Shown here: in pieces, positions 16,102 through 28,491 of the stretch | Layout: the number at the start of each line of letters is the position of its first letter | Position numbering within the stretch: the stretch's first letter is position 1 | Assembly (NCBI GenBank): GCA_017537025.1 | Contig: JAFWCB010000005.1 | Coordinates: 712,104 to 776,103, forward strand | Direction: 5' to 3' | Length of the DNA stretch: 64,000 nt | From: Sediminibacterium sp. | GTDB taxonomy: Bacteria > Bacteroidota > Bacteroidia > Chitinophagales > Chitinophagaceae | Program-made: the position numbers and the translations under genes | The notes under the pieces: generated by a model | Databases searched by the model: none | Told to the model about the DNA's origin: nothing | The model's input: the letters and a program-made list of their open reading frames with translations, nothing else

Positions 16102-16974
16102 TTATAATTTTGATATAAAGTAGATAAAAGTACTAAAAACTAAAAAAAACCATATCGGCAATATAAAGAGTAGCACCCCAAACAAAACCGAGTCAAAAAA
16201 AACGGTACCTTTTGTTACAGCATATACCATTCTTCTTATAGGCCAAAAAATGGGTAGCACAACATATTTTATTATTTTTCCCAAGGCGGGGTATTGACTC
16301 TCCTCTACACTGGCAAGTTCAGAAGACTTTACCAATAGTGATTCTAACGCTGATTTGATTGTCGAATTAAACCCTTGAACTGTTTTTACTGTATTTTTCT
16401 CCTTCAAAAACTCATCTGCTTCAAAAAGTTGTCCTGCACTTACAACCACTTTTTTAAAAACAGCAGGTATTTGCGAATAAAAAACACAAACAGGTAAAAC
16501 CTTTAGTGGCACCGCCCCTTCATATCCCATTATTATACGCGCAGCTCCTTTTTGAAATGACTGTAACTGATGGCTGTTAATACAAATACCTTCAATAAAA
16601 ATCAATACAATTCCGTTTTTATTTAGCACTTCCTGTGTTTTAGCAAAACTACTGGCATTCAGCTGAATTTTATCGCGCCCCTCGCGCATGCGATAAATGG
16701 GGATCATTTGTAATCCATTTAGCAATATTCTGTAGTGGCTTTTTTGGAAAGCGTCGCCCCTTGCTAAATAATGTACGGGGTATTTACAGGTAGCGCCAAT
16801 GATAATAGCATCTAAAAAGGAATTTGGGTGATTTGCCACTAATAGCAATGGACCGCGGGTTTCAAATAGTTCCGTAGCCGCAATAACTTTTTTTTGAAAA
16901 AAAATTTTTAAAAGAAGCCTTGCCGCTATTTTAATTATAGTATACAAATTATCACTGATATATAAATTTACCAA
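16102..16974 (-). CDS. Lysophospholipid/glycerol-phosphate acyltransferase family protein
   Basis: The 290-residue protein has the PlsC-type blocks ANHPNSFLDA (His and Asp spaced HX5D, as in one subgroup), FQKSHYRILLNGLQMIPIYR, and VLIFIEG. A hydrophobic C-terminus (about 250-288) suggests membrane anchoring. It should move an acyl chain onto a glycerophospholipid or another lipid hydroxyl. No ATG is available near the 5' end: TTG at 16974 overlaps the preceding gene by 23 bp, and a TTG at 16947 would not. As the last gene of the operon it links that locus to lipid acylation. Confidence 0.8.
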   Translation of the reverse strand: MVNLYISDNLYTIIKIAARLLLKIFFQKKVIAATELFETRGPLLLVANHPNSFLDAIIIGATCKYPVHYLARGDAFQKSHYRILLNGLQMIPIYRMREGRDKIQLNASSFAKTQEVLNKNGIVLIFIEGICINSHQLQSFQKGAARIIMGYEGAVPLKVLPVCVFYSQIPAVFKKVVVSAGQLFEADEFLKEKNTVKTVQGFNSTIKSALESLLVKSSELASVEESQYPALGKIIKYVVLPIFWPIRRMVYAVTKGTVFFDSVLFGVLLFILPIWFFLVFSTFIYFISKL

Positions 16975-18195: not shown

Positions 18196-20060
18196 TTTCT
18201 ATTAATCTTTTTAGCTACCATTTCAGCAAACCAAATGCTTACCAGCGCCTGATGGCTTTCCGGAACTTCATGGCCTAACGTAGGGAATACATATAAATCG
18301 CTTCGGGCTAAAATACTTGGGCTTAATTTGTTATAGGCTGCAATTTGTGCGCCGGGCGGACAAAATGGATCCAATAAGCCAACAGCATATAATACCGGGC
18401 ATCGAATACCGGGCATAAAATTTTGTAGATCAAAATAATTTAGCGTTTCTAATATATTCTCTTGTTTTACTCCCTTATGCTCTTTTTGATAGTCAACTAA
18501 ATTCTTAATGGGAAAAGAACGTTCTCTTTTAGAGAGCCCAATATCAAATGTACTTTTCCAGTCTGCAAATACCGGATTATTGGCAACTACTGCATTAATT
18601 TTCCCGGGCATTAAAGCTGCGGTAATTAATGATAGGGTTGCCCCCTGGCTACCACCAAACGCAATAATCCTTCCTAAATCAAACCCCATATCAGCATGAC
18701 TATAAATAAACTCTAAGGCCCTTACACAATCCATGTATATTCCCTTATATACGTAAGCATCCTTATCTTCTAAGCCAACCGTTATCTGTTCTTTATTCTC
18801 CGGATTAATTTGTTTGTACACTTTGGGGTCAATACCTCGTACATTCACGGTGAAGATTACGTAGTCGTCGTAGTAAAGTGGGTTCAAAGGAATTTTATAG
18901 CCGCCATAACCAATTAATACCGGGTATTTGCCTTTGGGTTTGGGTATAGAAAGCCATCCATAGCAATTAATATTCCCCAGTGATACCCAATCTACACGAT
19001 ATACCATATGATAATAGGTGCTGAGTCCCTCATCTAGTGTTACTTTAAACTGGGGATCAGTTTGATCTAGTTCTTGTTTTGCATTTTTCCAAAAATCTTC
19101 AAAGTCTGGCGCTCTCCTATAAGGCGTTCCATAATTAGCAACACGATATCCGAATGCATGTAAACTGGTATCGTCGTATGATGTTGTATTTAACGCCGCT
19201 TTTAAATTATAGATGCCCGGATCGGTAATAGCGGGTAATGTTATATTAAAACTTCGTTGCCCTTTTCTACCCAGTTTAATTTTTACTTGTTTTGAATTCA
19301 CCTCTTTCCCGTCTTCCGTTTCAATGAGTAAAGTGAAAGTGCCTTCTTGCTTGGTTTTATATTTATTCTGAATATTAACCGAATACTTAATACTGTTGCC
19401 ATTCATGAAAATACCGTCTTTTTCAGCGGGTTTTAGTTTCACAATAATTTCTCCCTCATCTTCACTGCCATTTCCTTTATCCGTATTTTCTTCTTGATCA
19501 TTATTAGCAGATTCTGCCTCTTTAACAAGTGTTTGTTTTGGAACAGGCGGACCAGGCTTCACATTATCGGCTATCCAATTTTGAATATAGGGGTTACGCG
19601 GTGTTTCCCTCCGATCTTTCGGTTTTCTGGGCGGGCCGCTGTAAGTAAACCCTCGTGTAAGTGTTTCGTTATATTCTGTTAAGTCAACCGTTGCTGTTAG
19701 CGAATAGGTGCCTTCTTCGTCTACATTTACATCAAACGAAGACACAAGGGTTTTACGCGCATTCACCCGAACATCTAACGAACTTGTTAGCACTTCATCC
19801 CCCTTACCATTCACTACCTTATACACGATGGTTCCTTCCTGATCAGATGAGAAATTATTCCGCAAACCTATTCTGAATTTAACCGGCTTTCTGGCAGAAA
19901 AACTACCCTTTTTATTATTGGGCTCTAACAAAATTTCAACCCCTTTCTGTTCCGTTTTTGGCTTACGCTGAAAGGCATACGAAGGTGCATAAGTAAGCAA
20001 TAGGCTTACTAAAGCAACTGATATAAAAACAAAAAATCGATATGTTTTTGCCATTCCCAT
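18192..20060 (-). CDS. Secreted acetylxylan-esterase-like alpha/beta hydrolase with two Ig-like domains
   Basis: From the ATG at 20060 the protein has about 622 residues: a signal peptide (about 1-29, ending SYAF), two tandem Ig-like domains (about 40-145 and 205-305) split by an acidic linker, and an AXE1-type hydrolase (about 315-620). The catalytic triad is intact: S471 in GGSQG, D564 in GLLDPF, H597 in LGHE. It should cleave acetyl or other short acyl esters outside the cytoplasm. A longer frame starts 75 bp upstream, but 20060 gives a TAATG stop-start junction with the acyltransferase gene and the proper signal peptide. Substrate is unknown. Confidence 0.82.
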   Translation of the reverse strand: MGMAKTYRFFVFISVALVSLLLTYAPSYAFQRKPKTEQKGVEILLEPNNKKGSFSARKPVKFRIGLRNNFSSDQEGTIVYKVVNGKGDEVLTSSLDVRVNARKTLVSSFDVNVDEEGTYSLTATVDLTEYNETLTRGFTYSGPPRKPKDRRETPRNPYIQNWIADNVKPGPPVPKQTLVKEAESANNDQEENTDKGNGSEDEGEIIVKLKPAEKDGIFMNGNSIKYSVNIQNKYKTKQEGTFTLLIETEDGKEVNSKQVKIKLGRKGQRSFNITLPAITDPGIYNLKAALNTTSYDDTSLHAFGYRVANYGTPYRRAPDFEDFWKNAKQELDQTDPQFKVTLDEGLSTYYHMVYRVDWVSLGNINCYGWLSIPKPKGKYPVLIGYGGYKIPLNPLYYDDYVIFTVNVRGIDPKVYKQINPENKEQITVGLEDKDAYVYKGIYMDCVRALEFIYSHADMGFDLGRIIAFGGSQGATLSLITAALMPGKINAVVANNPVFADWKSTFDIGLSKRERSFPIKNLVDYQKEHKGVKQENILETLNYFDLQNFMPGIRCPVLYAVGLLDPFCPPGAQIAAYNKLSPSILARSDLYVFPTLGHEVPESHQALVSIWFAEMVAKKINRK

Positions 20061-21256
20061 TAATCCCTCTTTTTTGTTTTCTTTTCTAATAATGCAGATT
20101 TTCGGATATAGAGATTCACCGGTTCTTCTATACACTTATAAAGTATAATTGATACAATATTTAGCAAGATAAAGACTATCCCAATCGATACGAATGCGTA
20201 ATCGATATGCTCCGATAACCACCAATATTCTTTTGCGTCTAACCAATCAAAAAAACGAGTGGTGCTTTTCTCGCTGAATTCACTTAGCAACGCAGAAATG
20301 AATCCAATATGTATCAGGTAGAAGATGTAGGAACTCTTACCTAATAATTGCATCAAAGGGGCAGATAACAAATACCGAATCAACGATTTTTCTTTCATTA
20401 AACCATAGAAGAATGCTACCACCCCAATTGGTAAAACGATATTATTTGCGAAAATACCTACAGGTTGGTACAGGCCAAATGGTGTTTTTTCATCAATTGG
20501 CTGAGTGGCCATAATAGCTACTCCCGCTGCTATCCCTAAGATTCCGAGCAAAGTGAATAGGGGGAATTTCTTAATCGTATCATCGCTTTTTAAAATGATC
20601 AAAGCCAATCCCATACCCAAAAAAAACTCTACACATCTTCCTAAAAAAGTATAGAGAAACATGAATTTAAAATTTCCAAAGAATCCAAAGAAATGCACAT
20701 TACTAAAAATCAATACTAACAATGAACCTGTGCCAAGTAAAATCAGTGGCAAATAAATTAATGCTGTTTTTCTTTTTTTGATATGCATGAAAAAAAACGG
20801 TGCTAAAAAATAGAAGCATTCTTCTACCGTTAATGACCATCCCTGACTAACTCCTGTAAATTTTAAGTCATCAAAAAAGCCTCTAAGAAAAAAAATATTC
20901 ATCAGCAAAATCGCAACCGGTGCCGATAAGCCGTTCTGAACATTATTACCGCCAAAGATCCAGAAATAGGCAAACGTAGCGATTGTTAAAATCAGGTACA
21001 TCGGATAGATACGTGCAATCCTATTTTTAATATATTTTCTGAACCAGGTGCCATTTATTTCACAAGTATCATAATAACGCAAACAAATTAGAAAACCGCT
21101 CAGTACAAAAAATAAAGTAACACCCATGTGAAATTCATTGAGTGTTCTAAAAACAGGATAGGAAAAGTCTGTCCGGTTAAAGTGATGAAAAAAAACCAGA
21201 AAAGCGGCAATTGCCCTCACGCCGGTTAGTGCCGGTATATATATGTTTGATTTCAT
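20060..21256 (-). CDS. Membrane O-acyltransferase (acyltransferase 3, OafA/YrhL type)
   Basis: The 398-residue protein has about ten hydrophobic segments and the family start TGVRAIAAFLVFFHHF with the conserved histidines, GVTLFFVLSGFLI, and SLTVEECFYFLAPFF. This family transfers acetyl or other acyl groups across the inner membrane to sugars of surface or secreted polymers. It sits between the two esterase/barrel pairs, 18 bp after barrel B, and touches the start of esterase A (TAATG). An acylating enzyme next to deacylating ones suggests control of O-acylation of one polymer or lipid. Confidence 0.93.
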   Translation of the reverse strand: MKSNIYIPALTGVRAIAAFLVFFHHFNRTDFSYPVFRTLNEFHMGVTLFFVLSGFLICLRYYDTCEINGTWFRKYIKNRIARIYPMYLILTIATFAYFWIFGGNNVQNGLSAPVAILLMNIFFLRGFFDDLKFTGVSQGWSLTVEECFYFLAPFFFMHIKKRKTALIYLPLILLGTGSLLVLIFSNVHFFGFFGNFKFMFLYTFLGRCVEFFLGMGLALIILKSDDTIKKFPLFTLLGILGIAAGVAIMATQPIDEKTPFGLYQPVGIFANNIVLPIGVVAFFYGLMKEKSLIRYLLSAPLMQLLGKSSYIFYLIHIGFISALLSEFSEKSTTRFFDWLDAKEYWWLSEHIDYAFVSIGIVFILLNIVSIILYKCIEEPVNLYIRKSALLEKKTKKRD

Positions 21257-21274: not shown

Positions 21275-22102
21275 TTACAGTTTTGCCACCAATGATATGG
21301 ATCCGCCTCCGCCCTTACCTGTATTTTTTCCGGTTATATCTGAGAAGATAGTAAAGAAAATTTGATAATTCTGATCAATCTTTCTACCATAACCTGCTTG
21401 CAGTCTGAAGTACGAGAACTGTCTGTTTAAAAACAAGTTATTGGGATTAAATGTATTAAGTGAACTGGTGGAATTAACACCGCTCATAGAAAATGTGACT
21501 TTATTAAAATCATCTAGCGGTATCCCAAATAAAGCGTCGAAAAATAATTGGGTGGGGCCTTCTGAACTAAAATATTGACGTAGTCCCGCATTCACATCAT
21601 AATATGTATTTTTTAATCTTTCCCTATTGGTTCCTGATAGGCTCATCTTTACTTCTCCACCAACTTGTTGAAAGCCGGTATAGGGAAGTTTTGTACTTGC
21701 GTTTGAATATAAAGGAACAATCAATGATCCTGTAATAGTTAAAAACTTATAGTAGTCGAAGCTATTAAGCAAATACCTTAAACCAAGTGTAGCATCACCA
21801 AGACTGGCATTTTGTTCGGTTAAATTATTTTCTTGCCTACGTTGTATTACATAGGGTAAGCTAGCAACAAAATCTGCTTTATCCGAAAGTCCATATCCGC
21901 CATATAAACTAAAATAATGTGATGTGAATCGGCCGTTATTATTAAAGCTTTGATAGTTTCCACTATTGTCCCAATAGCCTTTTGCCTGGTATAAATTGTA
22001 GGATGGTACGATTAGGTATTTGCCTTTTTTAGCGAGTGGGAAGTCGGCAAAGCAATTTGCTGTAATAAAAAGTGCAACAACAAGGATTAGTTTATGTTTC
22101 AT
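21275..22102 (-). CDS. Outer-membrane beta-barrel protein, copy B
   Basis: The 275-residue protein has a signal peptide (about 1-19, ending CFA) and a beta-strand pattern with a closing strand SISLVAKL. It is the paralogue of the barrel at 17377-18195, sharing overall layout (ADFPLAKKGKYLIVPSYN at the start, SLGDATLGLRYLL in the middle, YGRKIDQNYQIF near the end). A Gly-rich GKGGGGS precedes the last strand. It follows the pseudoesterase gene by 33 bp, as copy A follows the active esterase. Confidence 0.75.
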   Translation of the reverse strand: MKHKLILVVALFITANCFADFPLAKKGKYLIVPSYNLYQAKGYWDNSGNYQSFNNNGRFTSHYFSLYGGYGLSDKADFVASLPYVIQRRQENNLTEQNASLGDATLGLRYLLNSFDYYKFLTITGSLIVPLYSNASTKLPYTGFQQVGGEVKMSLSGTNRERLKNTYYDVNAGLRQYFSSEGPTQLFFDALFGIPLDDFNKVTFSMSGVNSTSSLNTFNPNNLFLNRQFSYFRLQAGYGRKIDQNYQIFFTIFSDITGKNTGKGGGGSISLVAKL

Positions 22103-22135: not shown

Positions 22136-23476
22136 TTATAATATTTTTTTGATCCAAAAGTTTTCAAACGAATAATATATATAGTTCATGCCTTCTTCGT
22201 CTGGCGCCATATATATTTCCCGATTATCAATCCGAATTTGATTATATAATGCAATAGCGGCTTGCGGTGGACAAGTCGTATTTTTCATATTATGACCAAA
22301 TAAAACCTTGCAACGAATATTCGGCGCGAAGTTTACCGGATCGAAATAATCCCATATTCTAAACAGGTTTTCTTTATTCAACCTATTTCTTGGATTATTG
22401 ATATATGCCTGAAAATTTAGAACCGGCCAGGGTTTTACTTTCTGTGTTTCTGCCATGAAAAACAGGGTACGCATATCTACATATACTGGCCGCTCTAACA
22501 CACATCCTTGGGGACGATTATCTAGTGCGCTAACCACCGCTGCCAGTACTGCTCCTTGTCCTTCTCCTTTTACAACTACTTTCTTAATATCTAATTTTAA
22601 GTGCTCATGGCGGTAAATAAATTCTAATCCTCGAAGCGCATCCATATACACACCCCGATAGATATATTTATTTTTATCGTTTAGGTTGATGATATTAAAT
22701 GTGTTGAAGTCGGCATTAGTATTGTCTTTACTATTGCCGTGACCTCTTACATTAAGCCTAAAAACTGCCATATCTTTTCGTAAAGAGTCGGGGCGCATAT
22801 CTTGCAAATAGCCCGGTAGTTCATACATAACTTTAAACTTCCCCTTTTCTTTTGGCACAGATAACCAACCTCTTATCGTTTGATAATCGAGTGATTGAAA
22901 TTCTACTAAAAAAACATCTACTTCTCTTGTACTTTGATCTCCTCTTCTGGTGACACGAAATTTCGGATCAATATTTATCAAATCTCTTTTCGCGTCTTCC
23001 CAAAACTGATCAAAGTCTGAAGGTCTGTTTACGTTAGAGTAAATTTTTTCAGGGTCTACTCCATACCCATAATACAATGTATCGTTATACCTACCTGCAT
23101 TGATAGCGATCATTAATTGGTAAAACCCCGGAACGGTGAGATTATTTTCCAGCTTAAGATCGGTAGAAAAACCACGGCGGGCGTCCATCGTAAACCCCAT
23201 CTCCTGATTAAATACCTGCTCGCCTTTATAGTTCTTTACGAAGGCCTTTAATGTGCCTCGTATTTTTTCGCCTGTGTTATTTTTTAAGCGAACATCATAA
23301 CCTACTTTTTCATCATTGCGAAAAATGGCTTCTTTTCTGAATGGTCGTATATCGTAAGATATGCCTTTGAGTGGGGGCTGGGCTATACAAAACACCGATA
23401 TGCTTGTGAATGCAAGCATATAGCAGCACCATAGCGCAGTACTGAGGCGTATTTGTTTGGGTACCCTACTATTCAT
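22136..23476 (-). CDS. Esterase-like protein lacking the catalytic triad (pseudoesterase)
   Basis: The 446-residue protein has a signal peptide (about 1-32), one Ig-like domain (about 38-140) and an AXE1-type hydrolase domain (about 150-446) clearly related to the gene at 18192-20060. All three catalytic positions differ. The nucleophile block GGSQG is GEGQG, so Ser becomes Gly306. The Asp in LLDPFCPP is N399 in MKNTTCPP. The His after the conserved Gly is M430. The surrounding fold motifs (LNVRGHG, YRGVYMDALRGLEFIY) remain, so the domain is probably folded but not a Ser hydrolase. It is the first gene of the operon and may bind the substrate or act with barrel B. Confidence 0.82.
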   Translation of the reverse strand: MNSRVPKQIRLSTALWCCYMLAFTSISVFCIAQPPLKGISYDIRPFRKEAIFRNDEKVGYDVRLKNNTGEKIRGTLKAFVKNYKGEQVFNQEMGFTMDARRGFSTDLKLENNLTVPGFYQLMIAINAGRYNDTLYYGYGVDPEKIYSNVNRPSDFDQFWEDAKRDLINIDPKFRVTRRGDQSTREVDVFLVEFQSLDYQTIRGWLSVPKEKGKFKVMYELPGYLQDMRPDSLRKDMAVFRLNVRGHGNSKDNTNADFNTFNIINLNDKNKYIYRGVYMDALRGLEFIYRHEHLKLDIKKVVVKGEGQGAVLAAVVSALDNRPQGCVLERPVYVDMRTLFFMAETQKVKPWPVLNFQAYINNPRNRLNKENLFRIWDYFDPVNFAPNIRCKVLFGHNMKNTTCPPQAAIALYNQIRIDNREIYMAPDEEGMNYIYYSFENFWIKKIL

Positions 23477-23602
23477 TTTAGGATGCGATTAACCAATTAC
23501 AACCATTTAACAATATCTACTCATACAGATATCTGAAAATAGCTGCTCGGCACTCTTAAAACGCTGAATATTAGGTTAATATTTTATGTCATTACATAAA
23601 AA

Positions 23603-23634
23603 AGTCCCGATTGCCAAGAAGGCTTACCGGGACT
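23603..23634 (-). terminator. Rho-independent terminator after recA
   Basis: On the minus strand AGTCCCG pairs with CGGGACT, with an inner GCC/GGC stem and a short loop, followed by TTTTTT. It lies 24 bp past the recA stop. Confidence 0.85.
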
Positions 23635-23657: not shown

Positions 23658-24680
23658 CTATTCTTCTTCCTGTTCAACAGGGGCAGGAGCGTCTACAATG
23701 AGCTTGGCTCTAATTTTTCCTTCTATTTCTTTAGCCAATTCTGGATTATCGTTTAATAGTGTTTTTACGGCGTCTCTACCCTGACCGAGTTTATTCGATT
23801 CGTAGCTAAACCAGCTTCCACTTTTTTGAACGATACCCAGTTCAACACCCATATCTATTATTTCCCCTACTTTAGAAATACCTTCTCCAAATACTAAATC
23901 AAATTCAGCTGCACGGAAAGGGGGGGCTACTTTATTCTTTACCACTTTTACTTTTACGCGATTGCCGATGGCTGCGTCACCATCTTTGATCTGCGTCATT
24001 CTCCGGATATCCAAACGAACCGATGCATAGAATTTAAGCGCATTACCGCCGGTAGTGGTTTCCGGGTTGCCAAACATTACTCCAATTTTTTCCCGGAGTT
24101 GATTAATAAATATGCAAATCGTATTTGTTTTATTAATAGTAGCAGTGAGTTTACGAAGGGCCTGGCTCATCAAACGTGCTTGTAAACCCATTTTGCTATC
24201 GCCCATCTCGCCCTCCAATTCTCCCTTTGGTACTAAGGCGGCAACCGAGTCGATCACTACCACATCTAATGCCCCCGATAGAATTAACCTATCGGCAATC
24301 TCTAATGCCTGTTCGCCATAATCAGGTTGGGAAATCAATAAATTATCTACATCTACGCCTAGTTTCTGAGCGTAAGCACTATCAAATGCATGTTCTGCAT
24401 CTATGATTGCGCACATACCACCCTTTTTCTGTGCTTCTGCTATCACATGAATGGCAACAGTAGTTTTACCCGAAGATTCCGGACCATATATTTCTACAAT
24501 TCTTCCCTTCGGTAAGCCGCCTACCCCAAGGGCTGTATCTAACCCAATAGAGCCAGTTGATATAACCTCCATGGGATCTTGACTTTTTTCATTCATGAGC
24601 ATCACACTGCCCTTGCCAAAGTCTTTATCAATCTTATCTATCGTTAGTTTTAACGCTTTTAGTTTTTCTGCATTACTCAT
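23658..24680 (-). CDS. recA: Recombinase A
   Basis: The 340-residue protein has the canonical RecA core: Walker A GPESSGKT at 66-73, [12 protein letters not shown], the L1/L2 loop regions with [27 protein letters not shown], and an acidic C-terminus VEQEEE. It catalyses strand exchange and LexA-type co-cleavage in the cytoplasm. It stands alone with its own -7 box and a strong terminator. recX is not adjacent but lies at 1996-2529. Confidence 0.99.
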
Positions 24681-26935: not shown

Positions 26936-27673
26936 TTATTCGAGGTGGTATTCTTTTTTAAGATATTCCAAAAGCGCTTCTCCATTCTTTTTTATTTCCT
27001 TTTCTGCTGCAATAATTCCTTTACATGTTCCTCTTATATAAACCGCATTCACAGATAACTCTTTTAGTAAATCTAAGTTATTAGAATGCAGCGGAGAATT
27101 GTTAGCCCCCATTAAAACCTCATTATCTTGTCCTTCATTTTGTAAAAAAACATTGGGGTCAAAAATTTTAGCTGCAATTTTTTGATATTCGATTTGTTCA
27201 GACTGCCTGATGGTTTCCAACATCAACAGCGCTTGAAATTTCAGATAATAGCCCATTATCTTATTTGAGGTCTCTAGCTTTTTTATTAGTCTGAAATTTC
27301 CTGAGTTTTTAAGCTGCTCTATTGTTCTGGTGTTATAAGCTAACGTAGTAAGTCGAGGCGCAATTCTTGCCAAATAATAAAGCTTTTTTGTGCTATCTTT
27401 TAAATTTGGTTCTTTGTACACTAACTGAATAAGGCTGTCGAGTATTTCTACTTTAGACTTTGTAAATGCAATATGTGCTGCAATAACTTCTTGATCAGCT
27501 TTTATATCTGCATATAATGATTCAATATATTCTTTCGCTCTATCTCTCTCAATTTTATGTTCTAATTGATACTCAGCCAAAAACCCACAGAACACCGCTA
27601 AGAATAACATAAAAAATTCCCAGAAATATTCTTTCCATTTCTTGGGATGGTGGGTGTGGTGGTGTACTTCCAT
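26936..27673 (-). CDS. DUF6090-type membrane-anchored protein, copy A
   Basis: The 245-residue protein starts MEVHHHTHHPKKW, followed by one hydrophobic segment (about 18-32) and a long mainly helical charged region. The first 34 residues are identical to those of the gene just upstream (27739-28491), but the remainder has diverged widely. This His-rich start plus single membrane helix is common in Bacteroidota proteins of unknown function. Most of the protein probably faces the periplasm. It is the last gene of the set that begins with the DUF5686 gene. Confidence 0.75.
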   Translation of the reverse strand: MEVHHHTHHPKKWKEYFWEFFMLFLAVFCGFLAEYQLEHKIERDRAKEYIESLYADIKADQEVIAAHIAFTKSKVEILDSLIQLVYKEPNLKDSTKKLYYLARIAPRLTTLAYNTRTIEQLKNSGNFRLIKKLETSNKIMGYYLKFQALLMLETIRQSEQIEYQKIAAKIFDPNVFLQNEGQDNEVLMGANNSPLHSNNLDLLKELSVNAVYIRGTCKGIIAAEKEIKKNGEALLEYLKKEYHLE

Positions 27674-27738: not shown

Positions 27739-28491
27739 TTATTCCAAATGATACTCTTTTTTGATGAGGGCGATTAACCGTTCAGCAGACTTTTCTATTT
27801 CTTCATACGTTCTTTTGTCTTGTGATGTAGTATTTGCTTGATCGGACAAAAAGTTGAGGTAAGGGCTCAATAATTCTCTGTTGATACGAATGTTTTCAAT
27901 AGTTACACTATCTGGCGCTGGGCGGTATGGGCTGAAATAGGGACGGCGACGGTAAATCGAAACAGCGTCTTCTGCTTGAATAATATGCTGTACAAACTCT
28001 TTTCCTCTATCCTGTGTTTTGAAATAAAGTTCCTTGAAAAAGTCAGCACGATCCCATAATAAATCCAGCGCTGCAATAGAATCTCTTACATTTTTCTTCC
28101 TTATCAACCGGAGGCCTCCCGCATTCTTTAATTGCGTCATAGTAGTATTATTTCTGCGGTAGTGTCTGTCCCATAAGGATCTGCCCATTAAACGAAAAAT
28201 ATTTCTTGGAATAGCTTTTGCTCCCGGATTGGTTTCAAAAAAGAGTAATAGAGAATCAATAGCAATTATTCGCTGATCTTTTCTTGGAAACCCTTCTTTT
28301 AAAAGAGCCGTATCGCTTTCAAGATCATCTACCAGCGACAACATATACTGCTTCTCCCTTTGATGCTCCACATAGTGCTCCACTTGTATCTCAGCCAAAA
28401 ACCCACAGAACACCGCTAAGAATAACATAAAAAATTCCCAGAAATATTCTTTCCATTTCTTGGGATGGTGGGTGTGGTGGTGTACTTCCAT
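27739..28491 (-). CDS. DUF6090-type membrane-anchored protein, copy B
   Basis: The 250-residue protein has the same 34-residue N-terminus as copy A (His-rich tail, membrane helix through VFCGFLAE). The charged helical body that follows includes VEHQREKQYMLSLVDDLESD and ends EKSAERLIALIKKEYHLE. Copy A ends in the same KKEYHLE, so both ends are conserved while the middle differs. Function is unknown. It lies 35 bp downstream of the DUF5686 gene and 65 bp ahead of copy A. Confidence 0.75.
   Translation of the reverse strand: MEVHHHTHHPKKWKEYFWEFFMLFLAVFCGFLAEIQVEHYVEHQREKQYMLSLVDDLESDTALLKEGFPRKDQRIIAIDSLLLFFETNPGAKAIPRNIFRLMGRSLWDRHYRRNNTTMTQLKNAGGLRLIRKKNVRDSIAALDLLWDRADFFKELYFKTQDRGKEFVQHIIQAEDAVSIYRRRPYFSPYRPAPDSVTIENIRINRELLSPYLNFLSDQANTTSQDKRTYEEIEKSAERLIALIKKEYHLE

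Follow-up and report, generated by a model that had tools for sequence, protein, structure and literature searches.

A conserved CE7-fold pseudoesterase clade and its candidate outer-membrane barrel partner in Sediminibacterium sp.

Why would a bacterium keep an esterase gene from which the catalytic residues have disappeared? The question is raised by P0001, a gene on the minus strand (22136-23476) of a 64,000-nucleotide stretch of contig JAFWCB010000005.1 of Sediminibacterium sp. (the window, meaning the whole stretch of DNA that was analysed). In the same cluster lie a triad-intact paralogue, P0002, and a gene for a predicted outer-membrane barrel, P0003, hereafter barrel A. The initial annotation had described P0001 as a secreted esterase paralogue lacking all three catalytic residues, and this observation was borne out once two points had been corrected: the coding strand is minus, and the histidine column is occupied by Glu428 and not Met. 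The open frame that had been claimed was also found, and it encodes 446 amino acids. These comprise a leader, a sandwich domain (residues ~39-140) and an AXE1/CE7 alpha/beta-hydrolase domain (~149-446) with Gly306, Asn399 and Glu428 at the triad positions. The hydrophobic leader ends in CIAQ, which is compatible with export and a mature N-terminal Gln, and residues ~39-140 form seven strands in the structural model, which we read as an immunoglobulin-like beta-sandwich. When scored against the Pfam AXE1 profile, P0001 and P0002 reached 131.3 and 150.7 bits (cut-off 21 bits); P0001 also has the CE7 alpha/beta-hydrolase fold of CE7/AXE1 esterases, and it shows 32% identity to its active paralogue across 376 aligned columns. 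Neither P0001 nor barrel A matched anything in PHROGs, and for six proteins no NCBIfam match exceeded the cut-offs.

Loss of the catalytic triad in a single clade

To place the triad columns, 84 AXE1 proteins were aligned: 35 members of the P0001 clade, 39 sister paralogues, nine distant Bacteroidota sequences and one triad-intact copy from genome G138. The set excludes three duplicate rows, six rows with short frames and the three loci that belong to the window itself, and two duplicate loci were dropped later. As the initial annotation had proposed, the nucleophile Ser (GGSQG in the active paralogue, GEGQG in P0001) is replaced by Gly306 and the Asp by Asn399. The loss of the His stood as well, but its replacement by Met did not, since it was off by two columns: the column of His597 of P0002 holds Glu428, while Met430 lies opposite the Val or Ile that follows the 'HE' of active members. 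The pairwise alignment of P0001 and P0002 is poor at this end, and the placement of the His column thus rests on the 84-sequence alignment. Gly306 aligns with the nucleophile Ser185 of the solved CE7 enzyme PbAcE (6agq), in which the Ser185Ala change alone abolished activity on all substrates tested, as given in the available text of PMC6209228.

Across the clade, the Ser column holds Gly in 35 of 35 members, so that the GxSQG nucleophile motif is absent, even though Gln307 is retained in 30. The Asp column holds Asn in 28 members and Ser in seven, never Asp; the His column holds Asn (20), Glu (5), Thr (5) and five other residues once each, never His. No member keeps any one of Ser, Asp and His, the reverse of a locus whose homologues mostly keep the triad, which the initial annotation had named as the outcome that would tell against its claim. 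Outside the clade, the Ser/Asp/His set is intact in 39/39 sister paralogues, 9/9 distant Bacteroidota AXE1 proteins and in the G138 copy. As a check on bias from the choice of loci, the remaining matches were read as well: a further 40 stretches yielded 42 proteins, with an intact triad in 41 of the 41 that could be assessed (one repeating an earlier row), and in the last batch it was intact in 26 of 26 assessable proteins among 27 rows not marked as repeats, two of these 26 being repeats nonetheless and 14 further rows repeating earlier ones. When the AXE1 matches of the family and genus were checked for their triads, those of G127 and of contig 134 of G366 were too short, and a 42-residue match in a 1683-residue frame of G213 was left out; all the others were read. 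Among the proteins read, the loss of all three catalytic residues is confined to one clade.

This clade does not depend on the catalytic positions themselves. With the triad columns removed, the pseudoesterases formed one branch both in a tree of 66 rows (support 100/98), from which 18 near-identical rows of the 84 had been dropped, and in a tree of 68 rows (100/99), for which 27 of the 84 were dropped, two long-branch outgroup rows among them, and 11 rows from other families were added. In the 68-row tree, the triad-intact esterases of G718 and G958, which belong to another family, and the triad-intact G138 copy diverge before the clade; the larger lineage is supported at 97/91, and the step that joins the G138 copy to the clade at only 95/55. 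FastTree placed this copy as sister of the clade (0.966), and the 66-row tree, with fewer outgroups, left its placement undecided (85/43). That the G138 copy lies outside the clade is settled, while its exact branching place is not. Most simply, these sequences suggest that the triad was lost once, on the stem of the clade, inside the family of the window genome and long ago. The separate clade that the initial annotation had anticipated is real and is accompanied by a barrel gene, but the site pattern that it carries is Gly, then Asn or Ser, with no His, and not Gly/Asn/Met.

Of 294 genomes sampled from the family, 22 carry a clade member, and these fall into eight of 101 genera; in the window's own genus the count is 13 of 101 genomes. 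Genome G138 carries three tandem pairs: an intact esterase with barrel B (the barrel type that adjoins the active esterase in the window), an intact copy with a barrel that is basal to the barrel A clade, and a dead copy with barrel A. A profile search of the order (298 genomes) found matches outside the family in ten genomes, none above 147 bits, and the triad was intact in all ten when one was read per genome. A search of the class (395 genomes) found closer relatives in another family, and the 11 esterases of other families that were read, in long regions plus one locus, all have an intact triad (11/11). In both searches some weaker matches without a locus were left out, and the groups were sampled, so that absence is not proof. 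The class also holds esterase-barrel clusters with intact triads in its family f61 (L169-L174); an Acyl_transf_3-like gene is present in all but one of these six, and G718 and G958 each carry two esterases and two barrels in tandem.

Loss of catalytic residues did not bring loss of constraint. The ratio of non-synonymous to synonymous substitution rates (dN/dS) was 0.005-0.036 in the ten computable pairs of pseudoesterases out of 14 (the value was missing for the pseudoesterase in four pairs and for the active esterase in six). These values are incompatible with decay and selection is strongly purifying, which, with open frames in eight genera, agrees with the proposal of a selected pseudoenzyme rather than a decaying gene. 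Judged by its sequence, P0001 is a pseudoenzyme: the catalytic residues of its active homologues have been lost, and the gene has been kept by selection.

The barrel gene that accompanies the clade

Barrel A (21275..22102, minus strand, 275 amino acids) is a predicted outer-membrane barrel whose nearest solved fold is 4rl8, a 12-stranded COG4313 channel. Aligned by fold, the two sequences are 12-14% identical. It has the 12-stranded topology and the size (270-320 residues) of that family. Residues 1-20 of the model, the segment compared with the lumen-folded N-terminus of COG4313 channels, have predicted local distance difference test (pLDDT) scores below 50.

A barrel A gene was found in the cluster of every pseudoesterase (35/35) and is the next gene downstream in 33; it is split over two frames in G073 and cut by a contig end in G154 and G315. 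The pseudoesterase lies directly after recA in 23 of the 35 loci. Elsewhere the pair adjoins a gene that we take from its sequence to be helicase-like (four loci of genus g48) or one that is presumably adenine-deaminase-like (four loci of g45). The pair stays together while the flanking genes change. In a tree thinned to 52 rows, the partners of the pseudoesterases form their own barrel A clade (100/99); frames shorter than 200 residues (L071, L106, L108) were left out of the barrel trees. Distances among pseudoesterases and among their barrels are correlated (r 0.85), and the partial correlation given RecA is 0.46, reached in one of 2000 permutations (n=16). As controls, we used the amidase encoded by a nearby gene, for which the correlation was -0.51 with the pseudoesterase (n=12) and weak with barrel A (0.20, 100 of 2000 permutations, n=12). 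The dependence is one-way: the pseudoesterase gene was not met without a barrel gene in any of the 35 clusters, and the barrel persists alone in two genomes.

A possible channel subunit and its rivals

What, then, might a dead esterase do beside a barrel? We suggest, with moderate confidence, that P0001 serves a COG4313-like outer-membrane channel as a periplasmic subunit that binds or gates without catalysis, and that it derives from an esterase-channel pair. This reading builds on the triad loss, its restriction to a single clade, the purifying selection, the constant linkage to barrel A and the independence from the active paralogue that is described below. The ancestral unit would have been an exported AXE1/CE7-fold esterase that carried the sandwich domain at its N-terminus and already had a COG4313-like barrel as partner; clusters that combine a full-triad esterase, a barrel and an Acyl_transf_3-like gene were found in another family (G718, G805, G832, G879 and G900). 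An ester-bearing ligand would have crossed the outer membrane through the barrel and been deacylated by the esterase. In the A lineage, Ser, Asp and His would then have been lost, with the fold, the leader and the partner retained and the pair kept as a unit. P0001 would reside in the periplasm, where the old ester pocket, the sandwich domain or both could hold the ligand of the channel, perhaps an acylated or amphipathic one, or dock on the barrel. It would thereby gate or load the barrel with no hydrolysis, acting as gate, loader or sensor, and the active esterase next door, with barrel B, would still deacylate its own ligand. More tentatively, and with somewhat less than even confidence, we propose that an outer-membrane channel family has recruited a dead esterase as its binding or gating subunit, with the dependence running one way, and that this gave the periplasm a receptor-like component that serves the passage of small molecules or lipids across the outer membrane; the steps of this evolution may still be visible in the active, triad-intact and dead tandem copies of G138.

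Several observations weigh against this proposal. The inactivity of P0001, its location and its contact with the barrel are predictions, and its model is poor in the loops around Asn399 and Glu428 (pLDDT below 50 at 398-400 and 427-429). The residue that precedes the old Ser is variable in the clade, most often Glu (15), Val (7), Ile (5) or Ser (3) among the 35 members. The dN/dS of the pseudoesterase was below that of the active esterase in six of the eight pairs with both values, but slightly higher in the other two (0.019 vs 0.017; 0.024 vs 0.020), and since some rows occur in more than one pair and several of the dS values lie above 1, the comparison is a description and not a test. On the side of the barrel, Pfam gave no match above its cut-offs for either window barrel or for four relatives. 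Linkage can be explained in part by operon structure, and the pseudoesterases of G066 and G207 have barrel A at the opposite end of their cluster instead of beside them. Finally, a barrel A gene whose product is 46-47% identical to that of the window occurs in G037 and G128, where no AXE1 match was found; the barrel can therefore function by itself. In G128 (L156:1-1547) this gene directly follows recA. In G037 (L155:4509-10494) it stands beside genes that we presume to be DNA methyltransferase-like and DUF262-like. Both barrels nest inside the barrel A clade and that of G128 follows recA directly, which indicates that the pseudoesterase was probably lost there. In G296, barrel A stands at the start of a contig and its upstream gene lies beyond it.

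Two other explanations seem to us unlikely, though they survive better than the rest. In one, the barrel would be a secretion or display partner, FapF-like or comparable to a split autotransporter, by which the esterase-fold protein reaches the surface; the pseudoesterase would serve there as an adhesin or lectin. In the other, which we consider no more probable, P0001 would bind an envelope polysaccharide or exopolysaccharide during its acylation and export, as a non-catalytic member of a synthesis and modification cluster. The Acyl_transf_3 gene of the cluster is in favour of such a role, as is the large protein encoded between the pseudoesterase and the rest of the cluster in G066 and G207: the 1141-residue protein of G066 (L097:9691-13113) reads by its sequence as a glycoside hydrolase 18, a polysaccharide deacetylase and a glycosyltransferase 2, and its counterpart in G207 (L098) has 1132 residues and occupies the same place. 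However, this large gene was seen in one genus only, the acyltransferase does not adjoin the pseudoesterase in stand-alone pairs, and it was unmatched in five of the 18 genomes searched (E 0.001).

P0001 could also be a regulatory subunit of the active esterase, one that co-assembles with P0002 and tunes it or competes for its substrate. CE7 enzymes are hexamers whose active sites face a central tunnel (PMC6209228, available text), which would allow such an assembly, and both genes share one cluster in most of the window-genus genomes that have the pseudoesterase. Yet 14 of the 22 family genomes with a pseudoesterase have no other AXE1 match when searched with P0001 and P0002, and 12 of these 14 are at least 93% complete. 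In G367 (L078:8626-10804), a genome of the window's genus, the region holds recA, the pseudoesterase, barrel A and a 140-residue frame resembling the sandwich domain, and no acyltransferase, active esterase or barrel B was found in that region. The loop that replaces the CE7 beta-interface is moreover shortened in some members, such as L105. The active paralogue is dispensable for the pseudoesterase, and a role as subunit or decoy of the active esterase cannot be general. We accordingly rejected the hetero-oligomer as a general function, and the idea as a whole is improbable. The binding or regulatory role that the initial annotation had tied to the protein's own barrel is supported; as a general role, regulation of the neighbouring esterase is not.

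Less probable still is a new catalytic activity by way of other residues of the same pocket. The Ser and Cys columns conserved in the clade include Ser195 (35/35), Ser249 (34/35) and Cys389 (34/35), of which the two Ser could speak for such an activity. In the active paralogues, Ser249 is not kept, the Cys389 column holds Cys in 38 of 39, and the Ser195 column holds Ser in 33 of 39, so that Ser195 is likely structural. In addition to the loss of nucleophile, acid and base, no column of the clade reaches 60% His (His246 is His in 17 of 35), and beyond residue 150 His is absent altogether from the members of G151, G199 and G247. This excludes a substitute Ser/His/Asp set shared by the whole family; conservation across the 35 members revealed none, the finding of which the initial annotation had said would overturn its view. 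A CxxC motif occurs at the lost-His loop in 13 of the 35 members (e.g. L105, L107, L110, L112 and L114), though not in P0001, and could be taken in favour of new chemistry; it is possibly a disulfide or a metal site in place of the His loop. Chemistry of a different kind in the clade has no support. As for a decaying gene or an assembly error, which a relative in G328 (L044) with a gene broken near its N-terminal end might suggest (a single case, maybe a sequencing error), it is refuted by the dN/dS values and by 34 of 35 clade frames that are full or near-full in eight genera.

Proteins with the alpha/beta-hydrolase fold but no working triad are familiar from eukaryotes, where neuroligins and GID1, of other hydrolase families, are pseudoenzymes or receptors that have turned to binding. 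P0001 shares with them the esterase fold without a triad, but its partner is a bacterial outer-membrane barrel. In the SusC/SusD pairs of Bacteroidetes, the barrel, SusC, is large and TonB-dependent, while SusD is a lipoprotein of the cell surface, and neither feature was found in barrel A and P0001. These glycan importers (PMC7618045) compare only in the way they work, by a barrel and a dedicated binding protein. From the CE7/AXE1 acetyl xylan esterases and cephalosporin C deacetylases (6agq, 1ods, 1vlq, 3fyt), P0001 differs in that Ser, Asp and His are all missing from its triad columns, in its additional N-terminal leader and sandwich domain, and in the pairing of its gene with one for an outer-membrane barrel. 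Barrel A resembles the COG4313 channels Pput2725, SphA and TcpY in its length of about 275 residues and in its best fold match, but it differs from them in its low identity to 4rl8 and in the missing Pfam match of the window barrels. Few substrates are known for this family according to the available text of PMC4493636, the main text of which does not contain the word 'esterase', and we found no esterase-fold partner of these channels there or among the papers listed. Both pseudoenzymes and CE7 enzymes are familiar, but among the matches listed from the open-licence literature, in their available text, none described a CE7-fold pseudoenzyme that is conserved and linked to a COG4313-like barrel.

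The family thus described is a bacterial pseudoenzyme lineage that forms a single clade, has sister lineages with intact triads and comes with a defined partner candidate, and P0001 may be an accessory subunit of a COG4313-like channel. Because the window genome holds an active and a dead pair side by side, the fate of a hydrolase fold after the loss of catalysis is directly testable there. Annotation by the AXE1 profile would label the proteins of the clade acetyl xylan esterases, a name that is unlikely to be right.

The cluster in the window and its transcription

All genes of the cluster are on the minus strand. Upstream of P0001 lies recA (23658..24680), which is followed by a hairpin and a run of T's (23598..23634, folding z -4.62) that is a probable intrinsic terminator separating the cluster from recA. 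Downstream of barrel A come P0006, an integral-membrane acyltransferase of 398 residues (20060..21256, Pfam Acyl_transf_3), and the triad-intact paralogue P0002 (18192..20060, 622 residues), which has two N-terminal copies of the sandwich domain ahead of its AXE1 domain. Adjoining the active esterase is barrel B (P0004, 17377..18195, 272 residues), which is 31% identical to barrel A. It is followed by P0005 (16952..17353, 133 residues, with a TTG start as listed), which resembles the N-terminal sandwich domain only and may be a stand-alone binding protein or a remnant of a third esterase copy, and by a PlsC-type acyltransferase (16102..16974, PF01553). Relatives such as L069 carry two copies of the active-type esterase.

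The gaps downstream of P0001 are 33, 18, -1, -4, 23, -23 and 49 nucleotides. With the hairpin after recA and no downstream gap exceeding 49 nucleotides, P0001 probably heads a transcript of its own; this supports its earlier description as a first gene with its own barrel, the barrel A gene being next in line. Scans for sigma-70 promoters (36 found vs 37.3 expected) and for simple terminators (9 vs 8.4) did no better than chance, and a Bacteroidetes-type promoter pattern had no match in the 181-bp gap after recA. The recA hairpin is missing from the simple terminator scan, probably because that scan allows loops of 3-8 only. Elsewhere on the same strand, two neighbouring genes (26936-27673 and 27739-28491) encode proteins whose first 34 residues are identical and His-rich and which then diverge.
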